21,668 nt of DNA, from positions 1 through 21,668 of IMG/VR virus record IMGVR_UViG_3300031566_000429; one strand, given 5' to 3'. This document shows, piece by piece, positions 1 through 13,881 of the stretch. A program made the translations under genes and the position numbers. The stretch is from a virus. Position 1 is the first letter of the stretch; each line of letters starts with the position of its first letter. The notes under the pieces were generated by a model. The model had not been told where the DNA came from and made no database searches. It saw only the letters and a list, made by a program, of their open reading frames with translations.

Positions 1-1404
1 GAAAGCAGTTAGGTCGGCGTTGTCGAACGTACGGGGCGATCCCGTGGCAGGGCCCAAGTCCTGACAGATACGGCCCGTGCATGCTTCTTGGCACGTCGAG
101 TTGATCTGCTCGAGAGCGAAGACCGAGTCGCCAGTCTTCTTGTTGTAGAGCCCGTTGTAGTCCCACGTGACGTTAGCCGGCTGGAGCTCGGTGGAGCGGG
201 TGTCCCAGAAGACACACTCATTGGTGCCATCCAGGTTGTCGCAGAAGATGCCGTTGTTCAGGAACACGCTCTCCTGCAGAGCCTGGAACGCCTCTACGTT
301 GCGGGTGCTCCCATCAGATACGAACGTGTTGTTGATGGTCTCGACGTTCTCAGAGCACTGCCCGTAGCCGAGCTTGCCGCCCAGGAAGTAGTTGTTCGTG
401 ACCGCCAGCCACTTCAGGCCACCCGAGGTCTTCATCCCGCGGACCGAGGTCGAGTCCCTCAGGTCATTCGAGTCGACCCAGTTGTACTCGGAGCATCCGT
501 CGTTCCAGTGCCCGCCTATGTCGATATCGTCCTCGCCGTTGTCGAGACAGCGATTGCTCTGGATCCATCCGTAGTGCCCGCACCATGACTTGATGCCGTC
601 CTCGTCGTTGGATGAGCCGTTATTCTCAACCAGGTTGTTGCGGATGATGTAGTCCTCGACGCAGCTGACCGAGATGCCACCGAAGCCAGGCGAGGAGGGG
701 TTGTCCTTGATCCGCGAGTTCTCGATCGTCAGATCGGTCACATCCCACCCTGCGGTACAGTCATCGTTCGTGAACCCGGAGTTGTTCGAGACTGAGATTC
801 CGCCCCGGCCCATGCCCTCGACCACCACGTTCGTGACAGTGACCGGCGTCGGGGTGTGCGGGGACCCTGGCTGGAGCCAGATCCCAGTCCCACGCCCGCC
901 CGAGCCGCCAGCGGCCGGGATGTTCCGAATCGCCAAATCCCGGACCACCAAACCAGTGAAATCGACGCCCTGAGCAAGGACCCCCGCCCCCTGGCACACG
1001 CCAGTGCCGTCTCCTGCCCCCTGGTGATCGATCAGGGAGGTCGAGACGACCGTATTCCACGGTCCCTGTGCAGAGGGCGTCCCGTCCGCTAAGGCCGTGT
1101 CGTCCGCCGCACGGCCCTCTACCGTGATCCCCGTATCCTCGATGACGACACAGTTGCCGTTCGCACTGGTGCCAGTGTGGGTACCGATGATGCGGATGGT
1201 GTCGCCGTTGACGACGTTGGACCGCTCGTTGGTCGTGAAATACTGGAGCGTCGCGCAGGCGTTCGTGATCGGGGTTCCGCACCCAGCTTCATTGTCACAG
1301 CCACCGGCGCAGGCGTTCCAGCCCGTGCCGATGTAGTAAATGACCGCCTCTGCCCTACCCGCAAAAAGGGTAAGCGCCAGCGCCAAAGGTAGTATTTTCC
1401 TCAT
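1..1404 (-). CDS. Secreted right-handed parallel beta-helix protein (partial, C-terminus beyond window)
   Basis: The frame is open for 468 codons from an ATG at 1404 to the left edge with no stop, so the C-terminus is missing. A GAGG ribosome binding site lies 7 bases before the ATG, and the previous gene ends 12 bases upstream. Residues 1-20 form a Sec signal peptide: MRK, a Leu/Ala-rich core, then an A-E-A cleavage site. Residues 21-75 resemble the DUF1565 opening of secreted beta-helix proteins (YYIGT, then ATLQYF, then NGDTIRI). After that come many short Asn/Gly/Asp-rich, beta-strand-like turns such as NNLVENN and NRCLDNGEDDIDIGG at 257-298, typical of PbH1 coils. There are 17 cysteines in the visible part, which fits export and disulfide bonding. 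Beta-helix phage proteins are often tailspikes or polysaccharide lyases. The export signal is odd for a virion part, so a secreted enzyme or surface modifier is an alternative. No catalytic residue can be assigned with confidence. Confidence 0.85.
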   Translation of the reverse strand, partial: MRKILPLALALTLFAGRAEAVIYYIGTGWNACAGGCDNEAGCGTPITNACATLQYFTTNERSNVVNGDTIRIIGTHTGTSANGNCVVIEDTGITVEGRAADDTALADGTPSAQGPWNTVVSTSLIDHQGAGDGTGVCQGAGVLAQGVDFTGLVVRDLAIRNIPAAGGSGGRGTGIWLQPGSPHTPTPVTVTNVVVEGMGRGGISVSNNSGFTNDDCTAGWDVTDLTIENSRIKDNPSSPGFGGISVSCVEDYIIRNNLVENNGSSNDEDGIKSWCGHYGWIQSNRCLDNGEDDIDIGGHWNDGCSEYNWVDSNDLRDSTSVRGMKTSGGLKWLAVTNNYFLGGKLGYGQCSENVETINNTFVSDGSTRNVEAFQALQESVFLNNGIFCDNLDGTNECVFWDTRSTELQPANVTWDYNGLYNKKTGDSVFALEQINSTCQEACTGRICQDLGPATGSPRTFDNADLTAF

Positions 1405-1416
1405 CAAACTGCCTCG

Positions 1417-1839
1417 TTATGGAATGAATGACCGGACGCAGGCCTGGAAAACGCCATTGTCCTCGAGCGTGACGACTTTGCCGATATCGCCATCATCCGC
1501 GCATGGCACGATAGCTGCCTCAGGGTGCTTGTCGCTAACCGAGCCACCTGCGCTACCAGCACCGCATGATCCCTTTTGCCACGAGCCATCACAGAACCAG
1601 CACGTGACCGTCATGGTCCCGCCGCCGGTGGCACAATCCGACGCAGTCACGCCATCGGTGATGGTACAGAACGTACCGTCCGTCGCAGTCGTGCCCAGAA
1701 ACCCGAGAACTCCGACTGTTGTGGGGCTCGGACAGCCCGATCCACCGGATTGGGTCTTTACCTGCGCCCATGCAGGGCTCAGGAATGCGCTCACAACGCT
1801 CAGGAACGCCGCTAGGGCGAGTTTCTTCATCAATGCCAT
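1417..1839 (-). CDS. Small exported cysteine-rich protein of unknown function
   Basis: This 140-residue protein has a clear Sec signal peptide: M-A-L-M-K-K, a hydrophobic stretch to about residue 20, then SPAWA|Q with cleavage after Ala25. There is no lipobox cysteine. The mature part is Gly/Thr/Ser-rich with 8 cysteines, including a C-W-F-C motif near residue 80. An even count is compatible with disulfides in the periplasm or outside the cell. AGGAGG lies 6 bases before the first ATG and overlaps the TAG stop of the upstream tip gene, so the first ATG is preferred over the one three codons later and translation is probably coupled to the tip gene. The following gene also has a signal peptide. 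I do not recognise a family. The C-terminal piece (GDIGKVVTLEDNGVFQACV) vaguely recalls end segments of phage fibre proteins, but this is weak. Confidence 0.75.
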   Translation of the reverse strand: MALMKKLALAAFLSVVSAFLSPAWAQVKTQSGGSGCPSPTTVGVLGFLGTTATDGTFCTITDGVTASDCATGGGTMTVTCWFCDGSWQKGSCGAGSAGGSVSDKHPEAAIVPCADDGDIGKVVTLEDNGVFQACVRSFIP

Positions 1840-1849
1840 CTTGGGCCTC

Positions 1850-4800
1850 CTAGACCGTCTCGAACAGCGTGAGGTTGGCCCTGGTGATCTCGAAGCGGAC
1901 GGTCAAGAACGTAGCGGCAGGCACATTGACCACCGTGACGCGCAGCCTTTGGTCCGAATTGAACCCCGTCGAGTCCCCTATGCCCGGACCTTTGCCGGCG
2001 ACCAGCGGGGGGCCCACTTGCCCGAGGATGCTGTTCAAGTCGATGCGGGTTGAACCTTCGTCTTCGTCCAGGCCTGAAGTGATGATCCCGAACGCGTCAT
2101 CGTCAAAGGTATGACCAAACCTGACGTGGGCCCCTGCGCCCACTGCGCCCCCGTTCGATGACACTGCGAGCTCGACGGCCGTCACCATGTAGGCGCCGGT
2201 GGTGAACAGGTCTACGGGGAACTCCCACGTCTTCGTCGTGGAGGTGGTATCGCCATTGACTGTCTGCGCGATCGAGAACTGGCCGGTAATGCCGTCTTGC
2301 TCAGGGAGCCCTGCGGGGCCCTGCGTCGAGGCCGTGCTGATACCGAGTAGAGCGTCGAGGGACAATGGGAAGTAGCCCCGCACCGAGTCGTTCTCGCTGC
2401 CGTTGGTCACCGAGTACACCGGGTCCGCTCGTAGTCGTGACTCAGACGATCGCGCCAGCGTGTACTTCCACGGACCAGACGTTCTGCCATTACCGCGTAC
2501 CCTGACGCGCATGATCTCTCGGTCCTCACCGTTCGGGATATTCCCGTCGGGTGTCGAGAACACGATTCGTCCAGTGACCGACAGGTTCGACGTATTGTCA
2601 GCCAGCGTAATCCAGAAGTTCACGTTGTACGGGTCCACTTGCAGGATAAACGCACTGATACTTTGAACCACGCCATCCACCGTCAACGGTATAGACGTCG
2701 CCCCCTCGATGTTCACTACCTGCTGACCACGCGCAGGAATGGGCCCGATCAATTGTGTTCCATCGGAGTCGTACGTATTCTCCCCGTGCGCCCAAGACAC
2801 GTTGCGCGGCGGAGTAACGGGAACATCACGTGGGAATATGAACCCGATGAACCCCGTATCTTTCGCCCACATCGCTGTGGTCGGGAGTAGTTTTACCTGA
2901 ACCCTGTCGCAGTCCGACGCGACCGTAAACGTAACCTCAGTGTCTGGATTGATCCCGTCCTGCGTGACTTGGAAGTATCCCTCGATGTCGCGAGGATCGT
3001 CCAGCCCAGTCATGTCCGGCATGCCCTCCAAAGAAATCCAGTCGCCCGTCTTCAATCCATGCACGCCCGTAGCCCACGCCAGCCGGATCGTAGCCGGATT
3101 TCCTACGTCGGACACGGTCTGTACATAGACATCCTCGCCGAACGGAGCCGTAACCGGGAAGCACCGGAGCTCGTCCCTGTACACGTACGTGCCGCCGCCG
3201 ACCACCTTGGGGCAATTGAATACCTCGTGAGCACCTGAGGCGTACTCCACGTCGTAGGTATCAGCACCATCCGCGGCGCCCCATGAGACCTCGAGTGTTC
3301 GCTGATTGCGCGGGCGGCTCAAGGTCGTGGCAATCCAATTCATGATCGGAGTGCCCGGGACGGTCTCTAGGATTTCTTCATCGGTGGGCGGAATCGCGCC
3401 GGTCTGATCCGCTGAGTGGACCTCGGGGGCGTCTATCACGCAGTCGAGATCGATCTTGTCGAAACCACGCGGCACGCCAGAGACAACCAAACACTTGCGC
3501 CGGAACGTGTCCTGACGGCCGAACAAGAACTGCGTGCGCTCACGGCCCTCGCCGGTAATGTTCATGGTCAGGTTTGGATCGGTACCGGTAGGATCGCCAG
3601 TCATCATGAACTGGTTGTCTGCGCCGACCACACGCAGGACGTTGTCCCCGGGCTCTGGGTGCGACACGCCAAGATCGTCCTTGAACGTAACGGCGTGGTT
3701 CCCGCCGAGCTTGTACAACTGCACCGAGTCAATCAGGATCTCGTCCGCGCCGACCGTACCGAGTGCAGTAACCCCCACTAGGAGGTCCGTCACGCCCGCA
3801 CTGAGACCATCGAAAATGACGCTCACCGGCGCCCAGTAGCCTTGGCTCAAGACCGCAGCATCGCCAAGGATCAATCCCCCGATCGGCTGCGGGAAGATGC
3901 TCGCCTTCACCTCCTTTCCGACCGCACTCGCGTTGTTCGCCTTCACCCACGCGACGAGCTCATACCCCTCGAGGTTCGATTGCGCGATATCGGGTATGTC
4001 GACTAGCTGCGTGATCCCCATCGTCGTTTCAGCACTCGGGTTGGTGAGCTTCATTGCCCCCTCTCCGATGTGCGTTTTGCCCACACCCGACTCCAGTGCT
4101 CGTACGATCGATGCCGGGCTCGAGACCCACGCAGAGATCTCAGTCGTGGTCTCCATGTCCCCGCTGATGGCCGTGGGGATGTCGCGCCAGTTCAGCTGCT
4201 CGGTCACCGTGAACAACCAGTAGGTATCGAATTGACCGCCGGAGATCTGCGAGAATCCGGTGACGTCCCCACCTTGGCTCTGCGCAATGATCGGGTGGTT
4301 CACGGAAACCATCTGGGTCGGGAGCACTAGTGTCCCTTCGTACTCAGTGGCGAACTTCACCTGCATACGTCGGTATCGTAGGTCCGCCGTGTGCCACCGG
4401 GCCTCCCTCCACGCGTGGGCTCGGTTCGTAATGCCGGGCATACGAACGGTCTCGAACTCCTGACTTTCCGCATCCTGATCGACGAAGTATCCGCCGACCG
4501 TGTCCATCTGCCACGTGTCCCCGTTGAAGAACTCGACCTCTATCCATTCAGGCGCGTTCGGCTGCAGAAAAGAGAATCCCTGGTCGAATGAGTTCTTCAC
4601 GATGTTGCGCGGGCTGAACGTCGCGACTGCGAGAGACTGCGCCTCATCCTTAACCAGAGTCCATTCGTTGTAGACCCATATCAGCTTGCATCGGTGTACC
4701 GACAACATCTGATTAACCGCGTCCATCCATGCACCGCGCTGATCGAAGTAGAACGCGTAGGAGTCATCCGGCTGCGGAACGGGGTCTCCACCACCGTCCG

Positions 4801-7800
4801 GGATCAGGACCTTGCCCGAGGTCTCGCTAGCGCGACGGGCAAAGGAATCCAGATCGATCTGGTCGTCAGTGAGACCACCTCCGTAGAACTTGTCCCGCAT
4901 CGCATCGAGTGCACAGAAGATCCCGTTGGTCACTGGCTGCATGCGCGACGGGTCCACCTGATACTGGTCGGTGATAGTGTTGCCACGAGAGAGCACGCCG
5001 CCCGAGTCTCCGCTCACGCCGTTAGAGTTATCGACATATAGCCTGTCGGCGTTGACGACCTTCTTGACCTCGAATGTGCCGTTGTTGTTGGAATCGCTGA
5101 ACGCGGTCAGGGTGACAGAGTCGCCAGGTGCGAGTCCCTTGGCTATGTCGGTACTGTTGATGGCGATCCGGTTCGGCTTCTTATTGCTGGTCGTACAGCC
5201 GGTCGTGTCCGGGAACGTGAAGTACCCCGGGTTCCACCGCTTGCCGGGCTCGGAGGCCGGGATGAGCACGGGCACGGTGGCACCAGGGTCATACCCAAGG
5301 GAGGTGATCTGGGCACTTGCCCCGCCAAAGTCCCCGAGCGCGCCAACGTCCAGTGAGTCCGAATCTTCAGTATGTAACGCCGCGCTAGTATGCATGAACG
5401 AGATCGTGTCCGGCCCCAATACCTCGAAGACGGCCCAGTCTCCGTCTAGGTCGAACGGACCGCCACCGGCGACCGGGGGCTTTGCGCCGCTTGCGACGTT
5501 CTCGGTGCCTGAGAGCCTGAACATCTGGCTCTGACACATGCTGTGGTCAGGGAAGTTGATCACGAACCTCATCGAGCCCGCTTGGGACTTGAACGCGTCT
5601 GTCGGGAGCCCCGTGAGCGGTACGGCGGAGCCGTATACCGGGATCAGCCGTGTGCCGATGTAGGCGACTTCTCGAGCAGTTTGTGTGTTCAGGTTGGCGT
5701 TGGCCCTGGCCTTCAGTGTCGAGACGGTGCCGTGTTTGTACTGCCGGTCCGCGACGTTACCGTCTCCGTTGATCGCGAATCTCAATCCTGTCCAGCTAAC
5801 GCGATCGTCTCCGACCTTATCCTCTTCCGAGAAGAGCCGGTTGTACGGGTCGACACCGCTTCCGGTACACCTCTGGACCCTGATTTCCCAAACCCCGTCC
5901 TCGTCATCGAAAGCCTTGCCAGCAGGCAGCCCAGTAAACCCATCGATGTCACGATTAGGATCAAGCGGGACAAGTTTCATGTCGAAGCTGAGCGTTACCG
6001 CCAAGGGATTCACCTCGTCGGCAGGTCCCCAGAATGGAACCGTGGTAAAGAACGCCGCGGAAGCGAACTTCGCGTCTCCGTAGATGATGCCTTGGTTCGC
6101 CTGAATAGATGGGGTCGGCTCCCCTGTTGGGCCACGAGCCGACACTTTCGAGGTCGTTATCTGCCAATCGCCCTCTTCCGATCCGTGTGTATCGGTCACG
6201 TCGTACCATGGGGACGCTGGCGCCCCAGTGACGTCGTTCACCTCACGGACTTGAACACGTAAACCAAGCGGGAACCTCTGTGGGTCACCGCTCACCGTGG
6301 CCCCCAGAAACAGCCCTCCAGTCAGGTCGACGAAGACCTTGCTCGAGGTGCCGGTCGTGCGCGTCATCTTGATGCCCGCAGTCCAGTCGATGCGGATGTG
6401 GCCACGGCTGTTCCCGGTAGGACTCCCCGATGGGCCATGAGTTCCGCCAGTACCCAAATCTCGGGGGACGACGTTATTCTGACCGTTCACCGTGCCGTCG
6501 GTGCCAAACGGTGGGCTCACCTTCACCCAATTCCGGTTATCGTTCGTGTGCCCGCTGGCTACAATGTGGCGTCGGCGAGCAGGGTGGAATATCCGCCACG
6601 TGAGCGTCGATGTGAACGCATGGGTCCAGTTACGGATCGTGGTCCCGACGTCGTCAGACCAATCGTTCCACGTCATCTGAGTCTTGAACGTGAGTGGCCA
6701 GACCATGAAGCCAGCACGGTTTGAATGAAACCTGTGACTCAGGTACTTGGTTTTAAAGTCCTTGTTGTCCTTGTCCGCATCGCCGTCGTATCTGGGATCC
6801 TGCATCCCGCATCCGTCGACCACATCGCCATTCGACGCGAATCGATTCGAGGCGACATCATCTCCGATGTCACCGAGCCAGAAAGTCTGACCGATGAAGT
6901 CCTGCCCCGCACCGGCCGCTCCGCCATTGAAGTTTCCGTACGTCGTGATCGAGACATCGCTCGTGACGGTCGGGTCCCACAAGAGCGTCATTGCGGGTTC
7001 GCCAACCAAGCCGTCCTCGCCCGACTCAACCGTATCGGAACTGATGGAGGTTCCAGGGATGTTTCCAGCCCCAGTTGCCATCACCTCATCGATCGTGATC
7101 TCCGCCGCCTGGCAGCGCGGGTGTACCTGACCGCGACTGTTGTTGGGAAACGCGTCACCCGGGGATACCGTCGCGTCTTCCTCCGCATAGGCGATCAACT
7201 GATACTCGTTAGAGCCGGGCAGGGGCACGTTGCCAGTGTCGACCGCGTCCACGGTAAGCGGCACAATCTTGCCGATGCTCGTGTCACCCGGGGAATGAAT
7301 CTTCCAATCGATCTCCGTAAGACCAGCGACGTCTCGATTGCCGATCGAGATCCTCGCGTTCGCGGAGTCGTACCAGCCTTGAGTCAGGTAGAGAACCTGA
7401 TGGAGGTACTGGACCCCACGACCGATCCGTCCTTTCTTACCGTTCTCCGCACCCTCGACATCTCGATCTACGACATAGACCTTCTGCCCATCCCAGACCG
7501 TGTAAGGCTCCTCGATCAGATCCGGGATAATGCGGATCTTGCCGTACTGGACGGGTATCGGCGATCGGCGACGGACGATATTGCCCGTTGGCGCGAGGCT
7601 ATAGGTCGGGCTCGCGTCCTCCGGTCTTCGGATACCGCCGGGCTTGAATAGCTGAGAAAGCCCATAGAGCCCGCCTGCGATGATCAGGCCCTTGGTGAGG
7701 CCGAAGGCCGAGTAAGCCAGCGTACCCGCTGTAATGCCGCCCCCTGCGGCTGCAGCGCCCGCTGCGATGCCAGCACCGCCTGACACCCCCGCTGCTGTGC

Positions 7801-8149
7801 CAACGCCCGCAGCGCCCAAAATGCCTCCAGCAAGGTACGGTGCAATGATCACGAGGATCAGAGCCCCGATGATGAGGCCAGGGTGAGAGCCACCACGGCC
7901 ACCGCCCCCGCCCTGTGGGATCAGTCGGCAGTCGATGAAATGGACGATCTGGTCTTCGGTGATCTGAGAGACGTCCCAATCCGCGCGCAGGACAAATTCG
8001 CCGTCTACCATGCAAATTGTCGGTACGTCGAACTCTTCAACCCCGTGCCGGTCCAGAAAGTCGCGAATAGTGGTCCCGACAGGCACTTCGTAGTGCCCGG
8101 TGTTGATGTCGCCGGAGACGACTCCGCAAATCTCTACTATGCCGTTCAT
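1850..8149 (-). CDS. Tail tip / host specificity protein, gpI-gpJ-like fusion
   Basis: I place the start at the ATG at 8149, which overlaps the stop of the NlpC/P60 gene (ATGA) and gives 2099 residues. The longer frame to 8212 only adds a shadow of that gene. Residues 1-76 look like the ubiquitin/ThiS-like N-terminus of tip-assembly proteins. Residues 79-88 are a Gly-rich linker. Residues 90-165 are hydrophobic with Gly/Ala-rich segments, as in lambda gpI. The gpJ-type body begins near 175 with R-x-SPIPVQYGKIRI, a counterpart of the P-V-P-x-x-Y-G motif. A second conserved block at about 1063-1316 includes MPGITNRAHAWREARW and the following beta-rich stretch. Residues about 1335-1480 resemble a carbohydrate-binding beta-sandwich, and about 1595-1650 an FN3-like domain. 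The rest is beta-rich and Gly/Asp/Thr-rich. The protein is nearly twice the length of lambda gpJ (1132 aa). It should close the tail tip and contact the host receptor. Confidence 0.85.
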   Translation of the reverse strand: MNGIVEICGVVSGDINTGHYEVPVGTTIRDFLDRHGVEEFDVPTICMVDGEFVLRADWDVSQITEDQIVHFIDCRLIPQGGGGGRGGSHPGLIIGALILVIIAPYLAGGILGAAGVGTAAGVSGGAGIAAGAAAAGGGITAGTLAYSAFGLTKGLIIAGGLYGLSQLFKPGGIRRPEDASPTYSLAPTGNIVRRRSPIPVQYGKIRIIPDLIEEPYTVWDGQKVYVVDRDVEGAENGKKGRIGRGVQYLHQVLYLTQGWYDSANARISIGNRDVAGLTEIDWKIHSPGDTSIGKIVPLTVDAVDTGNVPLPGSNEYQLIAYAEEDATVSPGDAFPNNSRGQVHPRCQAAEITIDEVMATGAGNIPGTSISSDTVESGEDGLVGEPAMTLLWDPTVTSDVSITTYGNFNGGAAGAGQDFIGQTFWLGDIGDDVASNRFASNGDVVDGCGMQDPRYDGDADKDNKDFKTKYLSHRFHSNRAGFMVWPLTFKTQMTWNDWSDDVGTTIRNWTHAFTSTLTWRIFHPARRRHIVASGHTNDNRNWVKVSPPFGTDGTVNGQNNVVPRDLGTGGTHGPSGSPTGNSRGHIRIDWTAGIKMTRTTGTSSKVFVDLTGGLFLGATVSGDPQRFPLGLRVQVREVNDVTGAPASPWYDVTDTHGSEEGDWQITTSKVSARGPTGEPTPSIQANQGIIYGDAKFASAAFFTTVPFWGPADEVNPLAVTLSFDMKLVPLDPNRDIDGFTGLPAGKAFDDEDGVWEIRVQRCTGSGVDPYNRLFSEEDKVGDDRVSWTGLRFAINGDGNVADRQYKHGTVSTLKARANANLNTQTAREVAYIGTRLIPVYGSAVPLTGLPTDAFKSQAGSMRFVINFPDHSMCQSQMFRLSGTENVASGAKPPVAGGGPFDLDGDWAVFEVLGPDTISFMHTSAALHTEDSDSLDVGALGDFGGASAQITSLGYDPGATVPVLIPASEPGKRWNPGYFTFPDTTGCTTSNKKPNRIAINSTDIAKGLAPGDSVTLTAFSDSNNNGTFEVKKVVNADRLYVDNSNGVSGDSGGVLSRGNTITDQYQVDPSRMQPVTNGIFCALDAMRDKFYGGGLTDDQIDLDSFARRASETSGKVLIPDGGGDPVPQPDDSYAFYFDQRGAWMDAVNQMLSVHRCKLIWVYNEWTLVKDEAQSLAVATFSPRNIVKNSFDQGFSFLQPNAPEWIEVEFFNGDTWQMDTVGGYFVDQDAESQEFETVRMPGITNRAHAWREARWHTADLRYRRMQVKFATEYEGTLVLPTQMVSVNHPIIAQSQGGDVTGFSQISGGQFDTYWLFTVTEQLNWRDIPTAISGDMETTTEISAWVSSPASIVRALESGVGKTHIGEGAMKLTNPSAETTMGITQLVDIPDIAQSNLEGYELVAWVKANNASAVGKEVKASIFPQPIGGLILGDAAVLSQGYWAPVSVIFDGLSAGVTDLLVGVTALGTVGADEILIDSVQLYKLGGNHAVTFKDDLGVSHPEPGDNVLRVVGADNQFMMTGDPTGTDPNLTMNITGEGRERTQFLFGRQDTFRRKCLVVSGVPRGFDKIDLDCVIDAPEVHSADQTGAIPPTDEEILETVPGTPIMNWIATTLSRPRNQRTLEVSWGAADGADTYDVEYASGAHEVFNCPKVVGGGTYVYRDELRCFPVTAPFGEDVYVQTVSDVGNPATIRLAWATGVHGLKTGDWISLEGMPDMTGLDDPRDIEGYFQVTQDGINPDTEVTFTVASDCDRVQVKLLPTTAMWAKDTGFIGFIFPRDVPVTPPRNVSWAHGENTYDSDGTQLIGPIPARGQQVVNIEGATSIPLTVDGVVQSISAFILQVDPYNVNFWITLADNTSNLSVTGRIVFSTPDGNIPNGEDREIMRVRVRGNGRTSGPWKYTLARSSESRLRADPVYSVTNGSENDSVRGYFPLSLDALLGISTASTQGPAGLPEQDGITGQFSIAQTVNGDTTSTTKTWEFPVDLFTTGAYMVTAVELAVSSNGGAVGAGAHVRFGHTFDDDAFGIITSGLDEDEGSTRIDLNSILGQVGPPLVAGKGPGIGDSTGFNSDQRLRVTVVNVPAATFLTVRFEITRANLTLFETV
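3705..4140 (-). other. Carbohydrate-binding-module-like domain inside the tip protein
   Basis: This covers residues about 1335-1480 of the tip protein. The order of elements is typical of CBM4/9-like jelly rolls: an early H-I-G-E-G-A-M-K-L-T strand, a V-A-W-V-K-A strand, an aromatic G-Y-W-A-P-V strand, a long L-L-V-G-V strand, and a closing I-L-I-D-S-V-Q-L-Y-K strand. Family assignment is by pattern only. If correct, it would bind surface sugars during adsorption. Confidence 0.5.
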
Positions 8150-8559
8150 GCCTTGACCCGGTAAAAACGTAGTTTCCGCCAGACGCACTGCGCGATCGGA
8201 ACCGCGACGCATCCGGTGCCCCTCTCGGAGTGTATAATCCGCCCCCCATCAACCGCCACATACACGCCCAAATGCATCTCCCGACGCTCATTGCCCATGG
8301 TGACCACGCATCCATCACTCGGGCCCGAGATCTCCTCGCCGAGCGGATGCCCAAGCTGGAAGATCTTGTCGGAGATTTCCGCGTCATTATCGGAGTTCAC
8401 CACCAGATCGGGCAAGTCGATACCGTAGAACCGTTTCTGGATATGACGAACCATGCCATAGCAGTCGAACGCGTATGGCCCCCGGGCTCCGGGTTCCCAT
8501 GGTAAGCCGATGAGGTCGGCCAGCGCCGCCTTCCCCTCAACGGACCAAGACGTCGTCAT
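8146..8559 (-). CDS. NlpC/P60-like tail peptidase
   Basis: This 137-residue protein carries a DCYGMV motif with the presumed nucleophile Cys33, a MHLGVYV segment with His96, and IIH with His110. This matches the Cys-His-polar layout of NlpC/P60 cysteine peptidases. In lambdoid phages the equivalent activity is in gpK, which sits next to the tip genes and is thought to trim peptidoglycan or act in tip assembly. The length fits a single NlpC/P60 domain with no N-terminal Mov34/JAB-like domain, unlike lambda gpK. The start overlaps the stop of the DUF1833 gene by four bases (ATGA), and its stop overlaps the tip gene start in the same way. The identity of the third catalytic residue is my inference from spacing. 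Confidence 0.8.
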   Translation of the reverse strand: MTTSWSVEGKAALADLIGLPWEPGARGPYAFDCYGMVRHIQKRFYGIDLPDLVVNSDNDAEISDKIFQLGHPLGEEISGPSDGCVVTMGNERREMHLGVYVAVDGGRIIHSERGTGCVAVPIAQCVWRKLRFYRVKA

Positions 8560-13092: not shown

Positions 13093-13432
13093 CAGTCGTG
13101 TCCTTGCCGTACTGCTCCGCCAGCCACTGCATGTCCAGCGCGGAGATCACCCTAAAATACACCTCTGCCAGCATCCCCTCGCACCCATGCAAGCGGAAGA
13201 AGGATTCGATCCTCTCGATCGGGATGGGGCCTGCCCCCGCGATTGTTATCGGACGCTGAACTTTCGACAGATAATCGAATGTAGCCCAGAGCCACTGCGC
13301 CTCCCCAGACGGGATTACGGGCTTGTCGGCACCGGCTGGGATCTTGTGGCTCCACCCTTCGTCGCGGAGCGCTTGGATCTTGTCTTCGCCGATTTTGCCG
13401 AACTCGATTTCCCATTTGAGGAGGCGACTGAG
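13079..13432 (-). CDS. Frameshift extension of the tail assembly chaperone (gpT-like part)
   Basis: This reading frame has no start of its own. It is in the -1 frame relative to the chaperone gene and is entered at the GGGAAAC heptamer. It adds 117 residues beginning LSRLLKWEIEFGKIGEDKIQ and ending DTTGGKK, giving a fusion of 267 residues over 13881-13079. The frame is open only after a TAG at 13477-13475, so the shift must fall between there and the zero-frame stop at 13315. The extension has normal protein composition, with conserved-looking L-L-K-W and W-L-W-A-T-F-D-Y blocks, while the zero-frame tail it replaces is Ser/Lys/Thr-rich and simple. It ends 14 bases inside the tape measure gene, the position of lambda T. 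The fusion protein should hold the tape measure during tail assembly. Confidence 0.88.
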   Translation of the reverse strand, partial: LSRLLKWEIEFGKIGEDKIQALRDEGWSHKIPAGADKPVIPSGEAQWLWATFDYLSKVQRPITIAGAGPIPIERIESFFRLHGCEGMLAEVYFRVISALDMQWLAEQYGKDTTGGKK

Positions 13433-13881
13433 TTTCCCACGAGAGCCATCGCTGCCGCGGGAACGTAGTTCTCCCTATCGAGGGTCTCTTGCAGCACCCA
13501 GTCGCGGAACTCTGACACTTGGGAGAGCACCAAGATGGCGTTCTCGAGGGTGCAGGGCAGAGGCTCGTCGTTGTCATCGTCGTCCGACCACTCGATGCCT
13601 TCCCATTCGCGCACCGCGAGCTCGGCAAGGCATTCAGCGTGGATCTCGTCGAACAGGGCACGGATCTTAGGCGGCAGTAACTCCAGTGAGTCACCTGCCG
13701 CCTTGATCGCATCCATGTCCTTGATGATATCGCTCGCCCGAGCGGCCAGCTTCTGCTGCTTGAGCATTTCATACGACACCATACTGACGCGGGCGATCCT
13801 GACGCGTACGCCAGGTGCCCACTGTTTCCAGACTCCGTCTCTCTCTGCCGACCTGTCAGTCCTCAGTTTCTTCAGGTTCAT
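13315..13881 (-). CDS. Tail assembly chaperone, short form (gpG-like)
   Basis: This 188-residue zero-frame product starts with ATG at 13881, overlapping the tail tube stop as TAATG. It is mostly helical, with an acidic central run (W-S-D-D-D-D-N-D-E) near residue 100. Position between the tail tube and the tape measure, size, and the downstream -1 extension all match lambda gpG/gpGT. Both forms are needed in lambda in a fixed ratio to chaperone the tape measure and recruit tube subunits, and neither stays in the virion. The last 38 residues after Asn150 are low-complexity (S, K, T, R), as expected for the part read only when no shift occurs. Homology to a named family is not obvious from the sequence alone. 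Confidence 0.85.
   Translation of the reverse strand: MNLKKLRTDRSAERDGVWKQWAPGVRVRIARVSMVSYEMLKQQKLAARASDIIKDMDAIKAAGDSLELLPPKIRALFDEIHAECLAELAVREWEGIEWSDDDDNDEPLPCTLENAILVLSQVSEFRDWVLQETLDRENYVPAAAMALVGNSVASSNGKSSSAKSAKTRSKRSATKGGATRSQPVPTSP
13432..13438 (-). promoter_or_regulatory. Programmed -1 ribosomal frameshift site
   Basis: Read on the minus strand the seven bases are G GGA AAC in the zero frame (codons GTG GGA AAC). They obey the X-XXY-YYZ rule and differ from the lambda G/T site (GGGAAAG) only in the last base. After slipping, the next codon is CTC at 13432. No strong downstream hairpin or upstream Shine-Dalgarno-like stimulator is evident. Confidence 0.88.

Follow-up and report, generated by a model that had tools for sequence, protein, structure and literature searches.

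It is generally assumed that the tail parts of tailed phages, fibres included, are folded and put together in the reducing cytoplasm of the host, and it would be unusual for a fibre to be exported from there ahead of assembly. Among described families, the closest to the proteins considered here are the collagen-like tail fibres (PF01391; PHROG 5073, 6320 and 1806) and the beta-helix proteins of PF13229, which include phage tailspikes and polysaccharide lyases. Host-exported phage proteins are known from lysis, as with the fOg44 endolysin Lys44, the SAR endolysins and T4 RI (PMC6116005), and from superinfection exclusion, where the lipoproteins Llp of T5 and Cor of T1-like phages act. T5 Llp is a lipoprotein located in the periplasm, holds a Cys11-Cys58 disulfide and is expressed early (PMC9586334). 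The literature searched, which covered few subscription journals and some sources in part, yielded no case of a cleavable export signal on a fibre of a tailed phage.

Here we analyse a 21,668-base virus record, IMGVR_UViG_3300031566_000429 (the window, by which we mean this whole stretch of DNA), in which two consecutive genes behind the J-like tail tip gene, A and B, encode cysteine-rich proteins with predicted Sec signals, and we compare it with a distant relative that has a similar array in the same place. With the collagen-like tail fibres the locus shares its position behind the tip and, in the relative, a collagen stalk and CBM5/12; it differs in the Sec-type signals and many cysteines of the array, and the window's A has only the N-terminal domain. 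Tail fibres are normally cytoplasmic and free of export signals, and the fibre-like proteins of related prophages have no such signal either, whereas a signal-like segment opens A and B as well as three of the relative's proteins. B resembles the PF13229 proteins by a profile match above the curated cut-off, but differs by its signal peptide and dense cysteines. Like Llp and Cor, A and B would be phage-encoded proteins that the infected host exports; unlike them, they have no lipobox and lie in a late structural operon, and B is far larger and of another fold. They would share passage through the host Sec system with the exported endolysins, also tailed-phage proteins (PMC6116005), but have no muralytic domain and do not stand in a lysis cassette.

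Genes A and B in the late operon

The window comes from an uncultured virus of bacteria, a siphophage, and is a 21.7 kb fragment of its late operon with every gene on the minus strand. The genes run from the portal (DUF4055), a scaffold-like gene, a Gp13-like major capsid protein (MCP) and small neck-region genes to a Phage_tube_2 tail tube, and onwards through a chaperone-like gene, the tape measure, DUF1833 and NlpC/P60 to the J-like tip, A and B; the scaffold, neck and chaperone names were assigned from gene order and not by profile. Between tail tube and tape measure (window 13152-13881), the ORFs 13315-13881 and 13152-13772 occupy the expected place of a frameshifted tail chaperone pair of the G/GT type. 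The tip protein (1850..8212, minus strand; 2120 aa) matches PHROG 31, 'central tail fiber J', at 1.8e-44, as well as PF13550. It is unusually long, since J measures about 730-1570 aa in most complete relatives, and one other J (locus L093) reaches 2205 aa.

Directly downstream of J lies gene A (P0001; 1417..1839, minus strand), which encodes 140 aa with a small cysteine-rich domain, followed by gene B (P0002; 1..1404, minus strand), which encodes at least 468 aa and ends at the contig end. The J stop codon falls within the Shine-Dalgarno region of A (CTAGGAGGCCCAAG-ATG), the two overlapping, only 12 bases separate the A stop from the B start, and B has a GAGG 7 nt ahead of its ATG at 1404. A scan of window positions 1-4000 found no promoter-like site between J, A and B, and terminator-like sites separating the three showed no excess over the shuffled expectation. 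Both genes adjoin the tip gene within the structural operon, which is where tail fibres are encoded.

The protein A begins MALMKKLALAAFLSVVSAFLSPAWA↓Q, with a signal peptide at 1765..1839 (minus strand) and predicted cleavage AWA↓Q; translation could also begin at a second ATG, at 1830, and the full signal would then remain. B begins MRKILPLALALTLFAGRAEA↓V, with its signal peptide at 1345..1404 (minus strand) and predicted cleavage AEA↓V. Both N-termini have the n/h/c layout of Sec signals and close with an AxA site, and on the basis of this pattern, the AxA sites and the conservation of the signal in one relative, each protein is predicted to carry a textbook Sec/signal peptidase I signal. 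The calls were made with a home-made signal-peptide heuristic, not SignalP. At the best start it flagged only A and B in the window; within the tape measure gene another possible start, an internal one, was flagged too, and among 409 genes that lie upstream of J in related phages 7 were flagged. Neither cleavage region has a lipobox (Cys at +1), so that no membrane anchor is apparent.

Mature A has 8 cysteines in 115 aa (7.0%), where 0.57 would be expected (Poisson P 2e-7), and mature B has 17 in 448 aa (3.8%), where 2.2 would be expected (P 3e-10), a count that is a lower limit since B is cut by the contig end. The background was set by the 15 other genes of the operon, which hold 31 cysteines in 6268 aa (average 0.5%). 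The earlier note, made from the letters alone, had reported two consecutive signal-bearing, cysteine-rich genes behind the tip, and this observation is confirmed, with its cleavage motifs and cysteine counts. The codon usage of B falls inside the operon range, which spans -0.96 to -1.16 per codon with the portal value not counted, and that of A, at -1.168, lies marginally outside the lower limit.

Positions 322..843 (minus strand) of B hold beta-helix repeats that match Pfam Beta_helix (PF13229) at 32.3 bits against a curated cut-off of 25.9 in a one-genome search, and by this profile B is assigned to the right-handed beta-helix superfamily. Its matches to DUF4957 and NosD were below cut-off, and it matched no PHROG. 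The single-sequence AlphaFold model of B was uninformative (pLDDT 38), and although several of the top Foldseek rows obtained with it were pectate lyases, a polygalacturonase and mannuronan epimerases, none was significant. The suggestion that the pair might be secreted glycan-active proteins would suit the beta-helix fold of B, but no catalytic family was matched: over the at least 468 aa available, B hit no depolymerase family in PHROG, Pfam or NCBIfam, and no tailspike family, its 3' part lying beyond the contig. The same profile collections found no muralytic domain in A or B.

The distant relative and other J loci

Searching distant MCP relatives with J led to the IMG/VR contig IMGVR_UViG_3300031800_000005 (36,183 bases; region L155), whose J, about 1850 aa long, can be aligned with that of the window over its full length at 30% identity. 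Behind this J follow, in order, a 137-aa protein, a 1332-aa fibre (P0004), a protein of about 405 aa and one of 345 aa. The first of these, between J and the fibre array (L155:11571-11984, minus strand), matches eCIS_core (PF13699) and has a HELEH motif; it is possibly a small metallopeptidase, and it has no counterpart in the window.

By its profile matches, which comprise PF01391 Collagen at 8.5e-72, CBM_5_12 and many PHROG tail-fibre families, P0004 is plainly a collagen-stalked, CBM5/12-bearing tail fibre. Between its collagen stretches (L155:7576-11574, minus strand) stand repeated units of the form CWDLNANGxCxxxxEDxDGDTDCDVxDCQG, which by eye are possibly EF-hand or thrombospondin type 3-like and would then bind calcium. 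The C-termini of the relative's three array proteins give the impression, again by eye, of C1q/TNF-like heads.

P0004 starts (M/L)KIAATILALILATPAHA↓ALRTEQGGTGCSSPTTIG. The protein of about 405 aa starts IKVLVLALALILPVGNAWA↓TAGYN and has 26 cysteines, its likely start codon being the TTG ahead of IKVLVLALALILPVGNAWA, and the 345-aa protein starts MISLILALLLLATPAAA↓DHAG and has 22; two of the relative's genes have apparent TTG starts and poor Shine-Dalgarno sites. Every one of the five array proteins thus has a hydrophobic N-terminus ending in AxA, namely AWA and AEA in the window and AHA, AWA and AAA in the relative. Cysteine makes up 2.1, 6.4 and 6.7% of the relative's three proteins, as against 0.7 and 0.4% of the two J proteins, and in both phages the enrichment is confined to the signal-bearing array proteins.

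The N-terminus of P0004 is also what connects the two arrays. A aligns with it at 44% identity over 63 residues that include the signal (BLASTP, E 3e-11), and the alignments define in A a conserved cysteine domain (GGSGCPSPTTVG...CTITDGVTASDC...C; 1582..1755, minus strand). A consists of this N-terminal domain alone, with no stalk or head of its own. Because the A-type cysteine domain forms the mature N-terminus of the relative's collagen-stalked fibre, A is most simply read as a minimal member of the same fibre class. It matched no PHROG and no database family, and its AlphaFold model was uninformative (pLDDT 33). No homologue of B could be detected among the array proteins of the relative, and the pair is not a fixed one: only the A domain is shared. 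Host export, which had been proposed from the window's two genes, is now well supported by sequence, the array recurring behind the relative's J with its signal conserved.

How widespread such arrays are was gauged in loci of IMG/VR and of cultured phages that have a related J gene, mostly 22-36% identical in the central domain. In none of these 70 other loci did the gene immediately behind J have a signal-like N-terminus; in 7 of the 70 one occurred within five ORFs behind J, several of these being short lipoprotein-like or endolysin-like ORFs of the lysis-cassette kind. Among the 2093 ORFs of at least 80 aa surveyed in the loci examined, a signal-bearing, cysteine-rich array behind the tip gene was found in the relative only. 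Fibre-like proteins do stand behind J in the related prophages L190 and L191, some of them beginning with a CBM5/12-like stretch by eye, and they have no signal. The A motif, run as a degenerate DNA pattern over all IMG/VR contigs, hit 11 stretches, with the domain in frame only in the known relative. These controls together identify the predicted exported array as a trait that is rare, seen in the window and the relative only, yet conserved between two far-apart phages.

Further homology searches returned little. Apart from the one relative, peptide patterns turned up nothing in IMG/VR that is closely related to A or B. With A, B and stretches of the relative's proteins as queries, tblastn against phages gave no match, and B matched neither plasmids by tblastn nor any of 50 records that comprised related phages and two bacterial genomes. 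No bacterial homologue of A or B was found in the collections searched. A profile search for the A domain through 398 genomes of the phylum of Lamprocystis gave two weak matches, both rejected on reading.

Possible roles of the array

We prefer to read A and B as exported, disulfide-stabilised accessory fibres or beta-helix binders that join J-tipped virions at lysis, and we give this whole chain a probability of roughly 0.42. The two would be members of a set, small and variable in content, of accessory proteins that bind surfaces and are encoded behind J. Their signal peptides would take each of them through the host Sec translocon, signal peptidase I would cut at AxA, and the cysteines would form disulfides outside the cytoplasm. 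B, with the fold suggested by its profile match, may bind or process polysaccharide. Once lysis mixes periplasm and cytoplasm, the exported proteins would meet J-tipped virions and attach to them as accessory adhesins, a last step that we favour because of the fibre architecture and the late-operon position. Counting for this reading are the five AxA N-termini with cysteines confined to the array, the homology of A to the fibre, signal included, in spite of J proteins only 30% identical, the signal-free proteins of L190 and L191 together with the 70 J relatives that lack a signal in the next gene, and the lack of a promoter-like site separating J, A and B. Counting against it are that a tailed-phage fibre of this kind would be unusual and has no precedent in the literature searched, that A has no stalk or head, that B is truncated and has no homologue in the relative's array, that the array is known from two phages only, that two starts in the relative seem to be TTG codons with poor Shine-Dalgarno sites, and that the signals were called by a heuristic. 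The wider proposal, of a siphophage lineage with a two-compartment adhesion apparatus in which capsid, tail and J are cytoplasmic and Sec-exported, disulfide-bonded fibres join at lysis, we consider somewhat unlikely. If the array is what it seems, virions of some tailed phages would be completed outside the cytoplasm, or else fibre parts would be re-used as secreted surface agents.

The second of these outcomes is the main rival, a possibility that we take seriously while doubting it: A and B might be exported and never enter the virion, serving instead, in the host envelope or beyond it, to mask receptors, exclude other phages, trim surface polysaccharide or free progeny from debris, and this would then point to a class of phage-driven changes to the host surface. 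It draws on the same export evidence as the accessory-fibre reading, receptor-blocking exported phage proteins such as T5 Llp are established (PMC9586334), and B is beta-helical like many polysaccharide-active proteins. Yet the relative's protein, with its collagen stalk, is built like a tail fibre, A and B show no lipobox or apparent membrane anchor, and their place in a late structural operon with no separate promoter seen differs from the early expression of Llp (PMC9586334). A surface-modifying or receptor-masking module had been the first suggestion of the earlier note. The export it presupposed has held up, while masking as such is less favoured than a set of exported fibres or adhesins, since in the relative the A domain opens a collagen-stalked fibre that matches CBM5/12 and PHROG tail-fibre families.

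That the hydrophobic N-termini do not serve export at all, and that A and B are cytoplasmic fibre parts whose segment binds the tail or inserts in the membrane at infection, seems improbable to us. Such a role would suit genes that adjoin the tip gene and the fibre architecture of the relative's protein, but it leaves aside the AxA sites in all five proteins and the cysteine enrichment found only where there is a signal, and related fibre-like proteins have no such segment.

Least probable, in our view, is that A and B are mere passengers, genes for secreted proteins of bacteria that were picked up at a changeable site downstream of J and have no part in infection. In favour of this, B has no relative in the other phage, so that the contents of the site do turn over, and its beta-helix family is common in bacteria. 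Against it, the A domain and its signal are kept across two phages whose J proteins are 30% identical, the codon usage of both genes matches or comes close to that of the operon, the genes are closely spaced and have Shine-Dalgarno sites within one operon, and no bacterial homologue was found in the collections searched. Recent capture of bacterial genes, the rival view previously raised, is likewise unsupported, because the codon usage lies at or near the operon range and the homology to the relative implies an old arrangement downstream of J.

Closer relatives of the window

For one contig, 99.9% identical to the window, the comparison reaches the NlpC gene, and the contigs with a 74% identical MCP (L006-L008) are fragments that end before the region downstream of J. 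Upstream of the terminase gene in one of them (L006:1-738, plus strand) is an ORF, missing its 5' side, with 21 cysteines in 245 aa, and it may encode another cysteine-rich exported protein.
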